From contig AYMD01000002.1 of the NCBI GenBank assembly GCA_000495735.1, forward strand, positions 271,793-335,792: 64,000 nt of DNA, written 5' to 3'. The notes below the pieces were generated by a model that did not search any database, had not been told where the DNA came from, and saw nothing but the letters and a program-made list of their open reading frames with translations. Below, one piece after another: positions 51,093 through 58,162 of the stretch; position 1 is the first letter of the stretch; every line of letters starts with the position of its first letter. The translations under genes were made by a program, and so were the position numbers. The DNA is from an uncultured Acidilobus sp. JCHS (GTDB lineage: Archaea > Thermoproteota > Thermoprotei_A > Sulfolobales > Acidilobaceae).

Positions 51093-51182
51093 TGGTAGCC
51101 GGGCGGGGATTCGAACCCCGGTCACGGGGGCTCCTCCACTAGGTCCAAGGCCCCGCATCCTGGGCCGCTAGACGACCCGGCT
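51093..51182 (-). tRNA. tRNA-Gln (TTG) with a 14-nt intron and C33
   Basis: The acceptor AGCCGGG/CCCGGCT, D-arm GTCT...GGAT, T-arm CGGGG-TTCGAAT-CCCCG and encoded CCA are clear. The anticodon stem CGGGG/CCCCG encloses CCTTGGA once 14 nt (CCTAGTGGAGGAGC or a shifted equivalent) are removed next to the 3' side of the loop. That gives anticodon TTG and a C instead of the near-universal T at position 33. An alternative stem GGGGC/GCCCC would read TGG (Pro), but the acceptor and D-arm match glutamine. Confidence 0.8.
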
Positions 51183-51240: not shown

Positions 51241-53259
51241 TCACTGGCCCTTGAAGCTGGGCTTCCTCTTCTCAAGGAACGCCGAGACGCCCTCTATGAC
51301 GTCCTGCGTGCTGAAGAGGAGACCGAAGAGCCCTGCCTCAAGCGAGAGGCCAGCCCATATGTTGCTCTCAAGGCCCATCTCAACCGCGAGCTTGGCCGCT
51401 AGGAGGGCCAGCGGCGGCTTCTCGGCAAGCTTGAGGGCCAAGTTCCTGGCCTCCTGCTCAAGCCTCTCTGGCGGAACAACCATGTCTACGAGGCCCATGT
51501 TCATGGCATCCTTAGCCGATATCATATCTCCAGTGAATATCAGCGACTTGGCCCTTCCCCTGCCAACAAGCCTCGGCAGACGCTGCGTTCCCCCAGCCCC
51601 AGGTATAAAGCCGAGGTTTATCTCGGGCTGTCCCAGCATGGCGGTCTCGGAGGCTATCCTTATGTCGCCGCTCATCGATATCTCAAGGCCGCCGCCGAGG
51701 GCGTAGCCGTTTATCGCGACTATTATCGGCTTAGTGTAGTACTGCATCTTGAGCGTCAGCTCCTGGAACTTCCTTGAGAATATGGTGGCCTTGATGGGAG
51801 TTATTCCGGCGAATGCCGTTACGTCGGCCCCAGCGCTGAAGGCTCTCCCGGCGCCTGTTAGAACTATGACCCTGACATCGGCGTTCTCCTCAAGCTCGTC
51901 AAGCGTCTGGCTCAGCTCAGCTATCATCTCGGGCGTTATAGTGTTAAGCTTGTTTGGCCTGTTGAGTATAATCCACGCTATCGGCTTCTCATACCTTACT
52001 ATGATGGTCTTCTTTACGACCTCCTCGTACTTAGCGTACTCGTAGAAGCCCTTGCCGGCCTTGATGCCTGTAGTCCCCTGCGACATCATCTGCCTCAGGA
52101 GCGGCTCAGGCTCATACTCAGGCCCTATGTCCTGCTTGAGCTGCTCCAGGGCCTTGACCACGGAGTCTATGCCGTACTGGTCGGCAAACTCAAGGACACC
52201 CTTGGGCCAGCCGAGGCCCAGCTTGACGGCCTTATCTATGTCGTCCCTGGTGGCCACGCCGTTCGACAGCAGCCAAGCGGCCTCGTTAACAGCTGGGGCC
52301 AACAGGAGCGCTGGGTCTACCTTGCCTGCGAGGTCCCTCGGTATCTCAGGCCTGGCGTAGGCCCCAGGCTTCGGGTACTGGTAGAAGCCGATGCCTGTCT
52401 TCATGCCTAGCCTGTTAGCCTTATACATCTGCTCTATGAGCGGGCACGGGGTCTGCTTGAAGCCCCTCTGGGACATAGCGACGGCTATTAGGTAAAACAC
52501 GTCAATGCCGCTGTAGTCGGCCAGCTCAAAGGCCCCCATGGGAAGCCCTAAGGTATACCTGACAGTAGCGTCCACCTCCTGTATTGTTGCCTTACCTTTA
52601 GCCACGAGCCAGCACGCCGTGTTCATGAAGCGGGCCAGCACCCTGTTCACTATGAAGCCCGGCACGTCCTTGTTAACGAGGACCGGCTGCTTGCCCATCC
52701 TCTTGGCTGTCTCGACCACGGCCTGAACAACCTCGTCGGCGGTCCTCTCGCCCCTTATCACCTCGACAAGTGGCATAAGGGGCGGCGGGTTGAAGAAGTG
52801 CATGCCAACGACGAGCTCCGGGGCCGTCGTGGCGGCCGCTATCTCAGTTATGGGCAGGCTGCTGGTGTTCGTCGCCATTATTATCCTGCCCTTTCTGTGC
52901 TGGTCTATGAACCTGAAGAGGGCCTGCTTCATCTCTAGCTTCTCCGGTATAGCCTCTATGACCATATCGGCCTCCGAGGCGGCCCTCGCCAACTCGTCGC
53001 TGAAGCTGCCGTCAGGCTTCACGCTCACCAGCGTGCTTATGCGTGACATCACTGCGTCAACGCTCTCCCTGATCTGCCCCTTCTCGGCCAGCTTGGAGAG
53101 GCTCCACCTGATCTTCTCTAGCGCGCCCCTCAGTATCTCATCGTTTATGTCAGCTACGTACACCTTGTAGCCGGCTATGGCTGCGACCTCCGCTATCCCA
53201 TGTCCCATAGTGCCAGCTCCTACGACTAAGACGGTCCTCACATCCTGGGCGGAGACCAT
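51241..53259 (-). CDS. Bifunctional 3-hydroxyacyl-CoA dehydrogenase / enoyl-CoA hydratase
   Basis: A 672-residue fusion found in crenarchaea. N-terminal dehydrogenase (about 1-400): VVGAGTMGHGIAEVA for NAD, HFFNPPPLMPLVEVI with the catalytic His, and a second C-terminal dehydrogenase domain. C-terminal crotonase (about 415-672): GAGRAFSAGADV and PEINLGFIPGAGGTQRL with the two Glu. It converts crotonyl-CoA to acetoacetyl-CoA in beta-oxidation or in the 4-hydroxybutyrate pathway. It could also provide acetoacetyl-CoA to HMG-CoA synthase nearby. Confidence 0.94.
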   Translation of the reverse strand: MVSAQDVRTVLVVGAGTMGHGIAEVAAIAGYKVYVADINDEILRGALEKIRWSLSKLAEKGQIRESVDAVMSRISTLVSVKPDGSFSDELARAASEADMVIEAIPEKLEMKQALFRFIDQHRKGRIIMATNTSSLPITEIAAATTAPELVVGMHFFNPPPLMPLVEVIRGERTADEVVQAVVETAKRMGKQPVLVNKDVPGFIVNRVLARFMNTACWLVAKGKATIQEVDATVRYTLGLPMGAFELADYSGIDVFYLIAVAMSQRGFKQTPCPLIEQMYKANRLGMKTGIGFYQYPKPGAYARPEIPRDLAGKVDPALLLAPAVNEAAWLLSNGVATRDDIDKAVKLGLGWPKGVLEFADQYGIDSVVKALEQLKQDIGPEYEPEPLLRQMMSQGTTGIKAGKGFYEYAKYEEVVKKTIIVRYEKPIAWIILNRPNKLNTITPEMIAELSQTLDELEENADVRVIVLTGAGRAFSAGADVTAFAGITPIKATIFSRKFQELTLKMQYYTKPIIVAINGYALGGGLEISMSGDIRIASETAMLGQPEINLGFIPGAGGTQRLPRLVGRGRAKSLIFTGDMISAKDAMNMGLVDMVVPPERLEQEARNLALKLAEKPPLALLAAKLAVEMGLESNIWAGLSLEAGLFGLLFSTQDVIEGVSAFLEKRKPSFKGQ

Positions 53260-54043: not shown

Positions 54044-54151
<108 letters not shown>

Positions 54152-54274
54152 CCGCCGAGGCCCTTTGCCTCCCCAGGCTTAAGAGCGTTCATGCCGTTAG
54201 GTAGTTCGACTATAGTCGAAAGAAAATCTGTCAAGTGCCTAACCTTTATAAACTAGTGGCCCATGATGTAGGCG

Positions 54275-55342
54275 GTGCCCTATAGCTTGGGAAGTGTGAG
54301 GGCAGGAGTACATGGATGGGGGGCCTACATTCCTATCTACAGGCTCCCCATGGCCGAGATCGCTAGGATATGGGGCTGGCACCCTGAGCAGTACAGGGGG
54401 CTCGCAGTTGACGAGAAGGCCATCGCAGGCCCTGACGAGGACTCCGTGACCATGGGTTATGAGGCTGCGAGGAACGCCATAGCGAGGGCGCAGGTCAGGC
54501 CGCGGGAAATAGAGGCCGTGTTCTTCGGAACCGAGTCGAAGCCCTATGCAGTCAAGCCCAGCGCTACTATCGTAGCGGAGGCCCTGGGCATAACCCCAAT
54601 GACCATGGCTAGCGACCTTGAGTTCGCCTGCAGGGCCGCCAGCGAGGGCATGAGGGCCCTGACGGGCATGGTGTCCTCAGGCCTGATAAAGTACGGCCTT
54701 GTGATAGGCAGCGACACAGCTCAGGCTAATCCTGGGGACGTCCTGGAGTTCACGGCAGCCAGCGGCGCTGCAGCGTTCGTGATAGGACCTGAGAAGGGCG
54801 CGGCCGCAATAATAGAGGACTCCGCAACGTTCGTGACGGACACCCCTGACTTCTGGAGGAGGTCAGGCGAGCCGTACCCGCTCCACGGCGAGGGCTTCAC
54901 AGGCGAGCCCGCCTACTTCTATCACATAGAGAGCGCTGTCAAGGCCCTCTTTGAGAGGACGGGACTTAGGCCGAGCGACTTCAAGTACGCCATATTCCAT
55001 CAGCCCAACGGCAAGTTCCCAGTGAAGGTAGGGCAGGACCTCGGGTTCACATTGGATCAGCTGAAGGAGGGGCTCGTGACGCCCATGATAGGGAACACCT
55101 ATAACGCCAGCGCGCTCATGGGCTTCGCTAAGGTGCTAGACAAGGCCAAGCCCGGCGACAGGATACTCCTAGCCCCCTTTGGTAGCGGTGCGGGAAGCGA
55201 CGCCTACTCTGTCCTGGTCACCGACGCGGTAGAGGCTAAGAGGCTTCTCGCGCCCACGGTTGAGCAGTACCTGGCCAGAAAGGTTAAGGTTGACTACGGC
55301 TTCTACGCCAAGAGCAGGGAGATAATTTACGTGATCAAGTGA
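54275..55342 (+). CDS. Hydroxymethylglutaryl-CoA synthase
   Basis: A 355-residue archaeal HMG-CoA synthase. The catalytic residues are in FFGTESKP (Glu), LEFACRAASEG (Cys) and FHQPNGKFP (His). It condenses acetyl-CoA with acetoacetyl-CoA. The TATA box CTTTATAAAC (54244-54253) is 26 bp before the GTG at 54275, which would be leaderless. First gene of the isoprenoid operon. Confidence 0.94.
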   Translation: MPYSLGSVRAGVHGWGAYIPIYRLPMAEIARIWGWHPEQYRGLAVDEKAIAGPDEDSVTMGYEAARNAIARAQVRPREIEAVFFGTESKPYAVKPSATIVAEALGITPMTMASDLEFACRAASEGMRALTGMVSSGLIKYGLVIGSDTAQANPGDVLEFTAASGAAAFVIGPEKGAAAIIEDSATFVTDTPDFWRRSGEPYPLHGEGFTGEPAYFYHIESAVKALFERTGLRPSDFKYAIFHQPNGKFPVKVGQDLGFTLDQLKEGLVTPMIGNTYNASALMGFAKVLDKAKPGDRILLAPFGSGAGSDAYSVLVTDAVEAKRLLAPTVEQYLARKVKVDYGFYAKSREIIYVIK

Positions 55343-55353
55343 GGTGATGAGGT

Positions 55354-56496
55354 TTGCAGGTGTTCGTGGAAGGGGTTGGGATGACAAAGGTTGAAAGACA
55401 TTATGAGAAGGGCCTCAGCCACCTGGCCGCAGAGGCCGCCTTTAAGGCCCTTGATGAGGCGGGAAGACCTGGAGGGGTGGACTACATTGTCGTCGCAAAC
55501 GCCTTGGCAACGCTACAGGACGAACAGCTCGACCTAGGGGGCTACCTAGCGGCCTCCCTTGGTCTGAGGGGCGTCAGGGCGCTAACCATTGAGGCCGGCG
55601 AGGCCAGCGGCCTCGCGGCCGCCCAGGTCGCGGCCTCCCTCATAGAGTCAGGCATGGCTGACAAGGTCCTGCTAGTAGGCGTGGAGAAGGTAACGGAGTT
55701 CCCCAGCGGCAAGGCTTATAGACACCTTCAGATGGTCTATGACTCTGAGAGCCGGTCGTACTATAACGTTGGCTTCGCGGCTGACGCCGCTATGCTCACG
55801 AGGTTATACATGGAGACCTATGGCGTTGATCGCGAGCTGCTTTCCTACTGGCCTGCCCTCATGCATAATAACGCTAAGGAGAACCCTTACGCCATGCTGA
55901 ACTTCGCTATTAAGCCCGACCGCGTCTCCAAGGCGCTCGCCATAGCGGAGCCGTTAACGCTGCTCGACACCTTCCCACTCGGAGATGGGGCGGCTGCAGT
56001 CGTCCTGTCGAGCGAGGACTCATCTTCAAAGCCTATGGCCAGGATAACCGCCATAGAGTCAGCGACAGGGCTTGGCTCTATTGAGCTAAGCGATGACCCG
56101 TTGATCATAGACAGCGTGGCCGAGGCCTACAAAAGGCTGTCCTCGTTGACCGGCGTTGATCGCTTCGACTTCATAGAGCTGCACGACTCATTCACCATAA
56201 CGGCTATGCTCGTACTTGAGAGCATAGGCGTAGCCCCTAAGGGCAAGGCGGCTGAAATGGTGGCCCAGGGGTCCTTCTCCCCTACCGGCTCCGGCCCCGT
56301 GGCCAACCCGAGCGGGGGCCTCAAGGCCAGGGGACACCCGATAGGCGCAACGGGCGTCTACCAGTTGGCGGAGGCCTCACTACAGGTGGCTGGCAAGTTC
56401 CCAGGCGTACAAGTGAGAGGGGCTAAGAGGGGCCTGGTGATCTCGATGAACGGCCTTGGATCGAACTCGTTTGTCGCGCTTGTTGAGGGGGTGTGA
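55354..56496 (+). CDS. Thiolase-like protein of the mevalonate operon, without any cysteine
   Basis: A 380-residue protein with the thiolase fold: ELHDSFTITAM and ARGHPIGATGVYQLAEA keep the active-site His and surrounding loop. The nucleophile region, usually EAxCASG, reads EAGEASG, with Glu83 in place of Cys. The whole chain contains no cysteine, so normal Claisen thiolase chemistry through an acyl-cysteine is not possible. In archaea the gene in this position makes acetoacetyl-CoA and forms a complex with HMG-CoA synthase and DUF35. Here a scaffold or channel role is inferred. TTG start 11 bp after HMG-CoA synthase. Confidence 0.85.
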   Translation: MQVFVEGVGMTKVERHYEKGLSHLAAEAAFKALDEAGRPGGVDYIVVANALATLQDEQLDLGGYLAASLGLRGVRALTIEAGEASGLAAAQVAASLIESGMADKVLLVGVEKVTEFPSGKAYRHLQMVYDSESRSYYNVGFAADAAMLTRLYMETYGVDRELLSYWPALMHNNAKENPYAMLNFAIKPDRVSKALAIAEPLTLLDTFPLGDGAAAVVLSSEDSSSKPMARITAIESATGLGSIELSDDPLIIDSVAEAYKRLSSLTGVDRFDFIELHDSFTITAMLVLESIGVAPKGKAAEMVAQGSFSPTGSGPVANPSGGLKARGHPIGATGVYQLAEASLQVAGKFPGVQVRGAKRGLVISMNGLGSNSFVALVEGV

Positions 56497-56499
56497 GCC

Positions 56500-56925
56500 T
56501 TGTCGATGGAGCTCTCGATACCTAGGTTCTGGAGGTTTAAGCACTCAATTTACAGGCTCCAGGCGGCCCGGTGCCGCTCCTGCGGAAGGGTCCACTACCC
56601 GCCGAAGAACGCGTGCCCCTACTGCGGCAGCCGCGACCTCGAGCCTGTAGAGCTCCCCAAGAGGGGAAAGCTCGTCAGCTACACTACAGTATACGCGGTC
56701 CCTGACGGCTCGAGGCAGTACTCACCTATCTATGTCGGCCTTATCGACCTAGGCCTGACTAAGGTGGTCACTGAGCTGACGGATATAGCTGATCCTTCCC
56801 AGCTCAGGAAAGGCATAGAGATGGAGGCCGTCCTACGGAAGGCAAGGGTTGACAGGGACGCCGGCCTCATATATTACGTGCTGAAGTTCAGGCCAGCCAT
56901 GGGGGTACCTGATGTCCAAGCCTGA
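56500..56925 (+). CDS. DUF35 OB-fold protein with rubredoxin-like zinc ribbon
   Basis: A 141-residue protein. ARCRSCGRVHYPPKNACPYCGS gives four zinc cysteines, and an OB fold (GKLVSYTTVYAVPDGS, PIYVGLIDL) follows. In the archaeal thiolase/HMG-CoA synthase complex this protein bridges the two enzymes and binds CoA. It starts 3 bp after the thiolase-like gene and overlaps HMG-CoA reductase by 14 bp. TTG at 56500 or ATG at 56506. Confidence 0.92.
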   Translation: MSMELSIPRFWRFKHSIYRLQAARCRSCGRVHYPPKNACPYCGSRDLEPVELPKRGKLVSYTTVYAVPDGSRQYSPIYVGLIDLGLTKVVTELTDIADPSQLRKGIEMEAVLRKARVDRDAGLIYYVLKFRPAMGVPDVQA

Positions 56926-58162
56926 CGTGGAGGACAGAGTTAATGAGGCCTTAAAGAGGCTTGAGGCAGGGGAGCTCAGCATAAGTAAACTTGACGACTT
57001 TTTGGGGAACCCTAACCTGGCCGCCCTGGCCAGGAGGCTCTTCCTCGAGAGGAAGTATAACGTTAAGCTGACGTCCATAGCGTCCACGGTCATAGACTTC
57101 ATAGGGGTCGTTGGAAGGAACATCGAGAACCCCATAGGGGCCGCCCAGGTGCCCATAGGAATCGTGGGTCCCCTGCTTGTACACGGCGACTACGCAAGGG
57201 GTGAGTTCTACGTGCCCATGGCGACGACCGAGGGGGCGCTGGTAGCGGGCGTTAACAGGGGCGTTAAGGCGGTCACGCTGAGCGGAGGGGCCAGGGCCAA
57301 GGTGCTCTACGACGGCATGGCCAGGGCCCCCCTAATCTGGACCCCAAGCGTTGATGAAGCCTATAAGCTAGCCTCCTGGATCAGGGAGAACCTGGAGGCC
57401 CTTAAGTCCGAGGTCAAGAAGGTCACCAGGCATGGGGAGCTCGTTAACGTGCAGACCTTCATAGTTGGTAACGTCCTGTGGCCGAGGTTCGTCTTTAAGA
57501 CCGGTGACGCCATGGGCATGAACATGGCGACCATAGCGTCTGACAGGCTGTGCTCATTTATATTGGAAAGGTATGGGGGCTCCGTTAAGTGCGTAACCGT
57601 TAGCGGCAACCTCTGCACGGACAAGAAGCCCAGTGCCATTAACAGGGTCCTCGGAAGAGGCAAGTACGTGGTGGCCGAGGCCATAATAAAGGGGGACGTA
57701 GTAAGGAAGGTGTTGAAGACCACAGCAGAGGACGTGCACTACGCCAACGTCTCCAAGAACCTGCTGGGCAACGCTGTCGCTGGCAGCCCCAGCTTTAACG
57801 GACATGTGGCGAACATGATAGCGGCCATCTTCATAGCGACAGGTCAGGACGTGGCCCAAGTAGTTGAGAGCAGCATGGCCTACACCTGGACTGAGGTCAG
57901 GGGGGAGGACCTCTACATATCCGTCACCCTCCCAAGCCTTGAGGTCGGCACCGTCGGCGGGGGCACCTGGCTTCCCACGCAGAGGGAGGCGCTAGAGCTA
58001 CTTGGCGTGGCCGGCGGTGGCGATCCCCCTGGGACTAACGCCCTGAAGCTCGCTGAGATAGTCTCGGCAACAGTTCTGGCCGGCGAGCTCAACCTGCTGG
58101 CGTCCCAGGTTACCGGGGAGCTGGCCAAGGCCCACGAGAGGCTTGGAAGGGGCCGCGGCTAG
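56912..58162 (+). CDS. hmgA: Hydroxymethylglutaryl-CoA reductase, class I
   Basis: A 416-residue NADPH-dependent reductase forming mevalonate. It shows ENPIGAAQVPIG, the catalytic Glu in MATTEGALVAG, GDAMGMNMAT, Lys in SGNLCTDKKPSAIN, Asp in TGQDVAQ and the C-terminal catalytic His in LAKAHERLG. Last gene of the operon; it converges with the next gene with a 4-bp overlap. ATG at 56912. Confidence 0.96.
   Translation: MSKPDVEDRVNEALKRLEAGELSISKLDDFLGNPNLAALARRLFLERKYNVKLTSIASTVIDFIGVVGRNIENPIGAAQVPIGIVGPLLVHGDYARGEFYVPMATTEGALVAGVNRGVKAVTLSGGARAKVLYDGMARAPLIWTPSVDEAYKLASWIRENLEALKSEVKKVTRHGELVNVQTFIVGNVLWPRFVFKTGDAMGMNMATIASDRLCSFILERYGGSVKCVTVSGNLCTDKKPSAINRVLGRGKYVVAEAIIKGDVVRKVLKTTAEDVHYANVSKNLLGNAVAGSPSFNGHVANMIAAIFIATGQDVAQVVESSMAYTWTEVRGEDLYISVTLPSLEVGTVGGGTWLPTQREALELLGVAGGGDPPGTNALKLAEIVSATVLAGELNLLASQVTGELAKAHERLGRGRG

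Follow-up and report, generated by a model that had tools for sequence, protein, structure and literature searches.

In the archaeal route to membrane lipids as it is usually described, a thiolase, HMG-CoA synthase (HMGCS) and HMG-CoA reductase (HMGR) act one after the other, the thiolase encoded in the operon being the source of acetoacetyl-CoA and this intermediate being channelled. The equilibrium of the thiolase reaction favours cleavage. A DUF35 protein is the bridging subunit of the known thiolase/HMGCS/DUF35 complex, which has been solved from Methanothermococcus (structures 6esq and 6et9). The window, i.e. the whole stretch of 64,000 nucleotides of Acidilobus sp. JCHS that was analysed, has the same three adjacent genes, and their products share with the Methanothermococcus proteins the fold, the residues of HMGCS and the zinc ribbon; a similar complex is predicted from these genes. 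However, the position held by Cys85 in the Methanothermococcus thiolase is held by Glu83 here and, judging from this residue, the complex in Acidilobus should be unable to carry out its first reaction.

All four genes of the operon lie on the forward strand. The HMGCS gene (54275..55342) is followed after 11 bases by the gene of the cysteine-free thiolase-fold protein (55354..56496) and this one, after 3 bases, by the DUF35 gene (56500..56925), which the HMGR gene (56912..58162) overlaps by 14 bases. The archaeal-type HMGCS scores above the cut-offs of TIGR00748 and PRK04262 and retains its Cys (EFACRAA), Glu (GTES) and His (FHQPNG); its Cys, Glu, His and Asn motifs are conserved in 90 of 91 homologues. 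The DUF35 protein (PF12172 and PF01796, a zinc ribbon and an OB fold) retains the CxxC..CxxC zinc ribbon, and HMGR exceeds the curated cut-off of TIGR00533. The three neighbours are intact, as the initial annotation had it, and at the level of the genes every component of the complex adjoins HMGCS. Upstream, on the reverse strand, a fused 3-hydroxyacyl-CoA dehydrogenase/enoyl-CoA hydratase is encoded (51241..53259; PF02737, PF00725, PF00378). The only call of ARAGORN is a tRNA-Gln at 51093-51182; a tRNA-like sequence with a GGTTCGAATCCCGG-type T arm, possibly bearing an intron, lies on the reverse strand at 54050-54152, where ARAGORN made no call.

The gene at 55354..56496 is an intact open reading frame which starts with TTG and encodes 380 residues, not one of them a cysteine. 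The best match among solved structures is the Pyrococcus furiosus thiolase PFC_04095 (7yvy, 1e-69), followed by the HMGCS-linked 6esq. This closest solved sequence and fold reads IEAACASG and HDAF where the Acidilobus protein reads IEAGEASG and HDSF; with VEAACASG in Methanothermococcus, the alignments place Glu83 (codon GAG, 55600..55602) exactly on the column of the nucleophilic cysteine. The two catalytic histidines expected of an acetoacetyl-CoA thiolase (EC 2.3.1.9; motifs HDxF/NEAF and GHPxG) are retained, namely His277 in HDSF (56182..56184), which some relatives have lost, and His328 in GHPIGATG (56335..56337), which is lost in families f11, f18 and f26. The nucleophile itself is lacking. 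Reading frame and alignments thus agree with what had been noticed from the letters alone: no cysteine, glutamate in its place, both histidines kept. By the alignments, one catalytic cysteine is missing and not two, because the cysteine-type relatives mostly carry HDAF and NxGG, so that a second cysteine is unexpected in the archaeal HMGCS-linked type. The single-chain AlphaFold model (pLDDT 92.9) has the thiolase fold (TMq 0.88-0.95 to 7yvy and 6et9/6esq, and 0.94-0.95 to the thiolase of the Methanothermococcus complex), and residue 83 sits where thiolases normally have their nucleophile, at the N-terminal start of helix 82-98. The cut-offs of the thiolase families are not reached: the protein scores 207.6 bits against NF053570, the Methanothermococcus-type acetyl-CoA acetyltransferase of NCBIfam (cut-off 600), and 274.5 bits against PRK06064 (cut-off 420), which a cysteine-type homologue, L063, clears with 434.3 bits.

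Is the change from Cys to Glu common to a lineage, as the initial annotation asked? We collected the region around the HMGCS gene from about 100 genomes of Thermoproteota; in 91 of them a thiolase lies beside HMGCS. The cysteine is kept in 28 of these 91 copies and absent from 63, in which its position is occupied by Asp (29), Glu (21), Gly (6), Gln (2), Ala (2) and, once each, Leu, Ser and Thr. Asp or Glu is therefore found in 50 of the 63, though two or three base changes separate them from Cys. The same Glu, again with no cysteine, is found in relatives at 75, 73, 66 and 65% identity, whose assemblies are independent and in several cases consist of a single contig, and all members of the same family with a readable site have GE.SG or GD.SG; examples with Glu or Asp come from Caldisphaera sp., Acidilobaceae archaea, Aeropyrum sp. 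and Zestosphaera tikiterensis. The replacement is thus characteristic of the whole family, and the survey of the phylum rules out an oddity of a single lineage. In genomes of families f9 and f3, HMGCS has no adjacent thiolase; the copies read there are unlinked cysteine thiolases, beyond which most of these genomes have no thiolase match. Two copies, L090 and L205, show a motif of another kind, EAGECSG, with Glu on the nucleophile column and a cysteine directly after it.

In a tree of the thiolases, a first cysteine-free clade (41 rows, SH-aLRT 99) comprises Sulfolobales-, Desulfurococcales- and Thermoproteales-like families and adjoins cysteine-type copies from these orders. The other large one (15 rows, SH-aLRT 95) is nested with further cysteine-type operon copies, and additional cases are found in Odin- and Sigynarchaeota and in genomes G032 and G039. 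The full tree has five changes of the cysteine state in all. When the two large clades were forced together, with the active-site columns removed from the alignment, the AU test rejected their union (p-AU 0.0018). This excludes a single common origin of all cysteine-free copies: the cysteine was lost independently at least twice. Several substitutions arose in parallel in both large clades, among them A to G at position 82, A to S at 279 and N to S at 364, together with the change at 83. Since their union is rejected and the same positions changed alike in both, the cysteine was lost repeatedly, and the remodelling of the pocket is convergent.

The catalytic histidines have also been eroded. 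Both are kept in 26 of 28 cysteine-type copies against 20 of 63 cysteine-free ones. In the remaining 43, His277 or His328 is gone; this includes all 13 copies of f11 (Asp at the nucleophile and Tyr for His328 in 13 of 13) and all 12 Asp-bearing copies of f18 and f26 (in f18, Asp at the nucleophile and Asn for His328 in 8 of 8). The lineage of the window kept both histidines and the whole pocket motif, and most of its family kept the NPSGGLKARG loop. Relative to HMGCS, the cysteine-free proteins evolve faster: family medians of the thiolase/HMGCS distance ratio are 1.38-2.93, against 0.56-1.84 for the cysteine type (Mann-Whitney p=0.0097). Nevertheless, the gene is not a pseudogene, because its dN/dS against congeners is 0.11-0.13 (about 0.06-0.13 over the cysteine-free genes) and the GG loop, Lys324, Asn318 and Asp278 are invariant. 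An essential residue gone from a gene under purifying selection is the pattern of a pseudoenzyme. As a separate observation, the HMGCS-linked copy L130 of G039 has Leu for the cysteine, Arg for the His of HDxF and Glu for the His of GHP; G029 and G213, its near relatives, keep all three residues, which places this complete loss in one lineage.

We then asked where acetoacetyl-CoA could come from. Another cysteine thiolase was counted when it was either classical (PF02803, E below 1e-30) or of the SCP2 type with the cysteine read in the sequence; in most cysteine-free genomes the classical thiolase is scored by HMM alone, the genome of the window being the one in which its residues were read, and an unread second match in the cysteine-type G213 and G170 was scored as a thiolase, i.e. 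against the association. Such an additional thiolase is present in 60 of the 63 cysteine-free genomes and in at most 4 of the 28 cysteine-type ones (Fisher p about 1e-14, the genomes being related). An independent-pairs test gave three pairs on starred branches and none contrary, too few for significance, and the association is phylogenetically clustered. The genome of the window has a classical acetyl-CoA acetyltransferase (L232:5609-6814, G000:C8) with the complete set of motifs (VCASG, NEAF, GHPLG, CHGLGG) and 422 bits against TIGR01930 (cut-off 240). Beside a DUF35 gene it also encodes an SCP2-type thiolase that has the Cys and reads HDCF (L233:5983-7173, G000:C1). In Zestosphaera tikiterensis, the HMGCS-linked copy has Glu and a second thiolase and DUF35 pair, away from HMGCS, keeps the cysteine (L104/L063). 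The same arrangement occurs in Desulfurococcales-like MAGs (L082/L058, L084/L060, L095/L064, L108/L079 and L098/L066).

Three genomes of f8 combine a cysteine-free operon thiolase with no detected cysteine thiolase; they have a Ser-type paralogue like that of PDB 4yzo. Because no cysteine thiolase was found there, a serine thiolase is conceivable in f8. These paralogues (L257, L259, L229) and 4yzo have Ser at the nucleophile, in ENTSGSGG. Thiolase-like genes without the nucleophile were encountered elsewhere as well. The genome of the window has two tandem pairs of them (L004 and L005 at G000:C9:63342-65340, L003 and L006 at G000:C13:15221-17025), with motifs such as VYVGGGTGV and PGDGL in one pair; a DUF35 gene accompanies one pair, and L270-L273 are similar tandem pairs. 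Three bacterial copies, two from Chloroflexota and one unclassified (L111, L112 and L115), have Pro at the nucleophile (ENGPASGG) and lie beside DUF35 with no HMGCS.

From these data we consider it likely that the cysteine-free protein is a pseudo-thiolase, kept as an architectural and CoA-site subunit, and that another, cysteine-bearing thiolase makes acetoacetyl-CoA. We infer that the thiolase-fold subunit no longer forms acetoacetyl-CoA; Glu or Asp at the nucleophile position cannot make the usual acetyl-cysteine. In Acidilobus, HMGCS would work in a complex with the DUF35 protein and the thiolase-fold subunit, the latter being required for the architecture of the complex and for the CoA-binding site shared in it. 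The carboxylate would probably fill what used to be the oxyanion hole, where the helix begins, held there by the second-shell changes A82G, A279S and N364S, and the wasteful reverse reaction, thiolysis of acetoacetyl-CoA, would thereby be removed from the complex. The thiolase that would supply acetoacetyl-CoA in Acidilobus is most likely the classical acetyl-CoA acetyltransferase encoded at G000:C8, with a possible addition by the beta-oxidation-like dehydrogenase, and HMGCS would receive acetoacetyl-CoA from the cytosol. Against this reading speak the three f8 genomes, the f9 and f3 genomes in which HMGCS does without an adjacent thiolase, the clustering of the co-occurrence, and the preference for Asp and Glu with its recurring neighbouring changes. 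The initial annotation had left the choice between a scaffold and a different chemistry. The scaffold gains good support from the recurrent loss, the erosion of the histidines, the faster evolution and the other thiolase, while a different chemistry is less likely. However, a pure scaffold would need neither the two histidines nor the pocket motif, hence their retention in the lineage of the window counts against it.

A variant of the pseudo-thiolase reading, differing in the source alone, holds that acetoacetyl-CoA comes mainly from a hydratase and dehydrogenase (via crotonyl-CoA, fatty-acid oxidation or the 4-hydroxybutyrate cycles) and that the dead subunit blocks thiolysis. The fused gene lies 1 kb upstream of the operon and accompanies most cysteine-free genomes; it is present in all genomes of f1 and in most of f11, f18, f26 and f6, and dehydratase-type genes which could feed it (HpaB_N, as in 4-hydroxybutyryl-CoA dehydratase) occur in f11, f18, f6, G039 and some of f1. 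However, this dehydratase family has no match in the genome of the window or in most of f1, the fused protein is also found in the cysteine-type G213 and G225, and it has no match in the cysteine-free f8 genomes or in G024 (f2). As the co-occurrence with the cysteine-free state is only partial, the strong version, in which this protein is the source, was rejected. The suggestion of the initial annotation that acetoacetyl-CoA might come from the fused protein at 51.2 kb survives in part, as that of a plausible contributor. Given the complete classical thiolase in the same genome, we hold the variant as a whole to be unlikely; by their sequences the classical and SCP2-type cysteine thiolases would be the more direct sources.

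A second alternative makes the carboxylate catalytic: Glu or Asp83, with His277 and His328, would carry out another reaction (Claisen, aldol, decarboxylation or acyl transfer), for instance through an acyl-glutamyl anhydride or by decarboxylating malonyl-CoA as in Cys-to-Gln ketosynthases, and the complex would still make acetoacetyl-CoA or feed HMGCS in another way. Asp and Glu are strongly preferred over residues that a single mutation of the Cys codon would give, and the neighbouring changes A82G, A279S and N364S recur in two independent clades; this hints at a positive function of the carboxylate and suggests that selection favoured it, as a plug of the oxyanion hole or for another reaction. 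The retention of both histidines and of the NPSGGLKARG loop in most of the family points the same way, and thiolase-fold enzymes without the cysteine but with another chemistry, the Ltp2 and Sal aldolases, do bind DUF35 (PMC12329534). On the other hand, a histidine is gone in 43 of 63 copies, among them the Asp-bearing ones of f11 and f18/f26, six other residues (Gly, Ala, Gln, Leu, Ser, Thr) occur at the site, and another thiolase is nearly always present. This makes a catalytic carboxylate rather improbable. We likewise give little credence to a more general form of the idea, in which the Glu/Asp-thiolase would be a novel variety of the fold, catalytic or regulatory, reached convergently at least twice, the carboxylate with Ser279 and Ser364 replacing the acyl-cysteine, and the HMGCS complex would use a different acetoacetyl or acyl source or be gated by the binding of a CoA ester in the dead site.

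Plain relaxed drift, which would leave a redundant protein with no role on its way out, could account for the faster evolution, the erosion of the histidines and the lack of a linked gene in f9 and f3. It is very improbable in view of the dN/dS of 0.06-0.13, of the convergent substitutions and of a place in the operon kept across deeply diverged families; moreover, SiRe_1461, which has this place beside HMGS in Saccharolobus islandicus (matched by position) and is called an acetoacetyl-CoA thiolase, is up-regulated together with HMGS and HMGR (PMC10465181). A sequencing or frame error hiding the cysteine, the test set by the initial annotation, has next to no chance of being the cause and was ruled out, as independent assemblies of the genus, the family and the order have the same Glu, and GAG is three substitutions away from TGC.

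In the open-access literature searched we found no report of the missing cysteine, an earlier mention in the 2018 PNAS paper on the complex being possible; the main text of the essential-genome paper on Sulfolobus islandicus makes no statement on these genes. In many heat-loving archaea, the protein concerned is annotated as the enzyme that opens membrane-lipid (isoprenoid) synthesis, and in much of Thermoproteota this operon protein cannot be a normal thiolase. If the pseudo-thiolase reading is true, the source of acetoacetyl-CoA has been misassigned across these archaea and substrate channelling is not universal. The question can be tested directly in genetically tractable Sulfolobales.

Finally, the pseudo-thiolase can be set beside other known systems. 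In ketosynthase chain-length factors and Cys-to-Gln loading ketosynthases, an active condensing enzyme likewise has a partner from the thiolase superfamily that lost its nucleophile, but the residue is Gln and not Asp or Glu, and the substrates are carried by acyl carrier protein and not by CoA. ST0096 of the related archaeon Sulfolobus tokodaii (4yzo) and the other Ser-type paralogues are also thiolase folds without the nucleophilic cysteine; they differ by their Ser (NTSGSGG) and by forming a separate clade, and L257 and L259 of f8 lie beside DUF35 with no HMGCS. The steroid aldolases Ltp2/ChsH2 and Sal/Shy are again thiolase folds without this cysteine and bound to DUF35 (PMC12329534), but they carry the tyrosine of YDHF or YDCY where the Acidilobus protein has HDSF, and they act on steroids whereas the present gene belongs to a mevalonate operon; chemistry of their type was rejected on this motif. 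PhlABC of Pseudomonas protegens (5m3k, 5mg5) has a homologous architecture of HMGCS-like, DUF35 and thiolase-like subunits, and its HMGCS-like PhlA is catalytically dead yet needed for a functional complex (PMC6392133). It offers a precedent for a subunit that is needed though inactive, and it is the mirror image of the present case: there the thiolase-like subunit works and the HMGCS-like one has lost both Cys and Glu, while here the thiolase-like subunit lacks its Cys and HMGCS is complete. If our reading is true, one and the same assembly of three subunits has been crippled on one side or the other, depending on the lineage: on the HMGCS side in PhlABC and on the thiolase side in these archaea.
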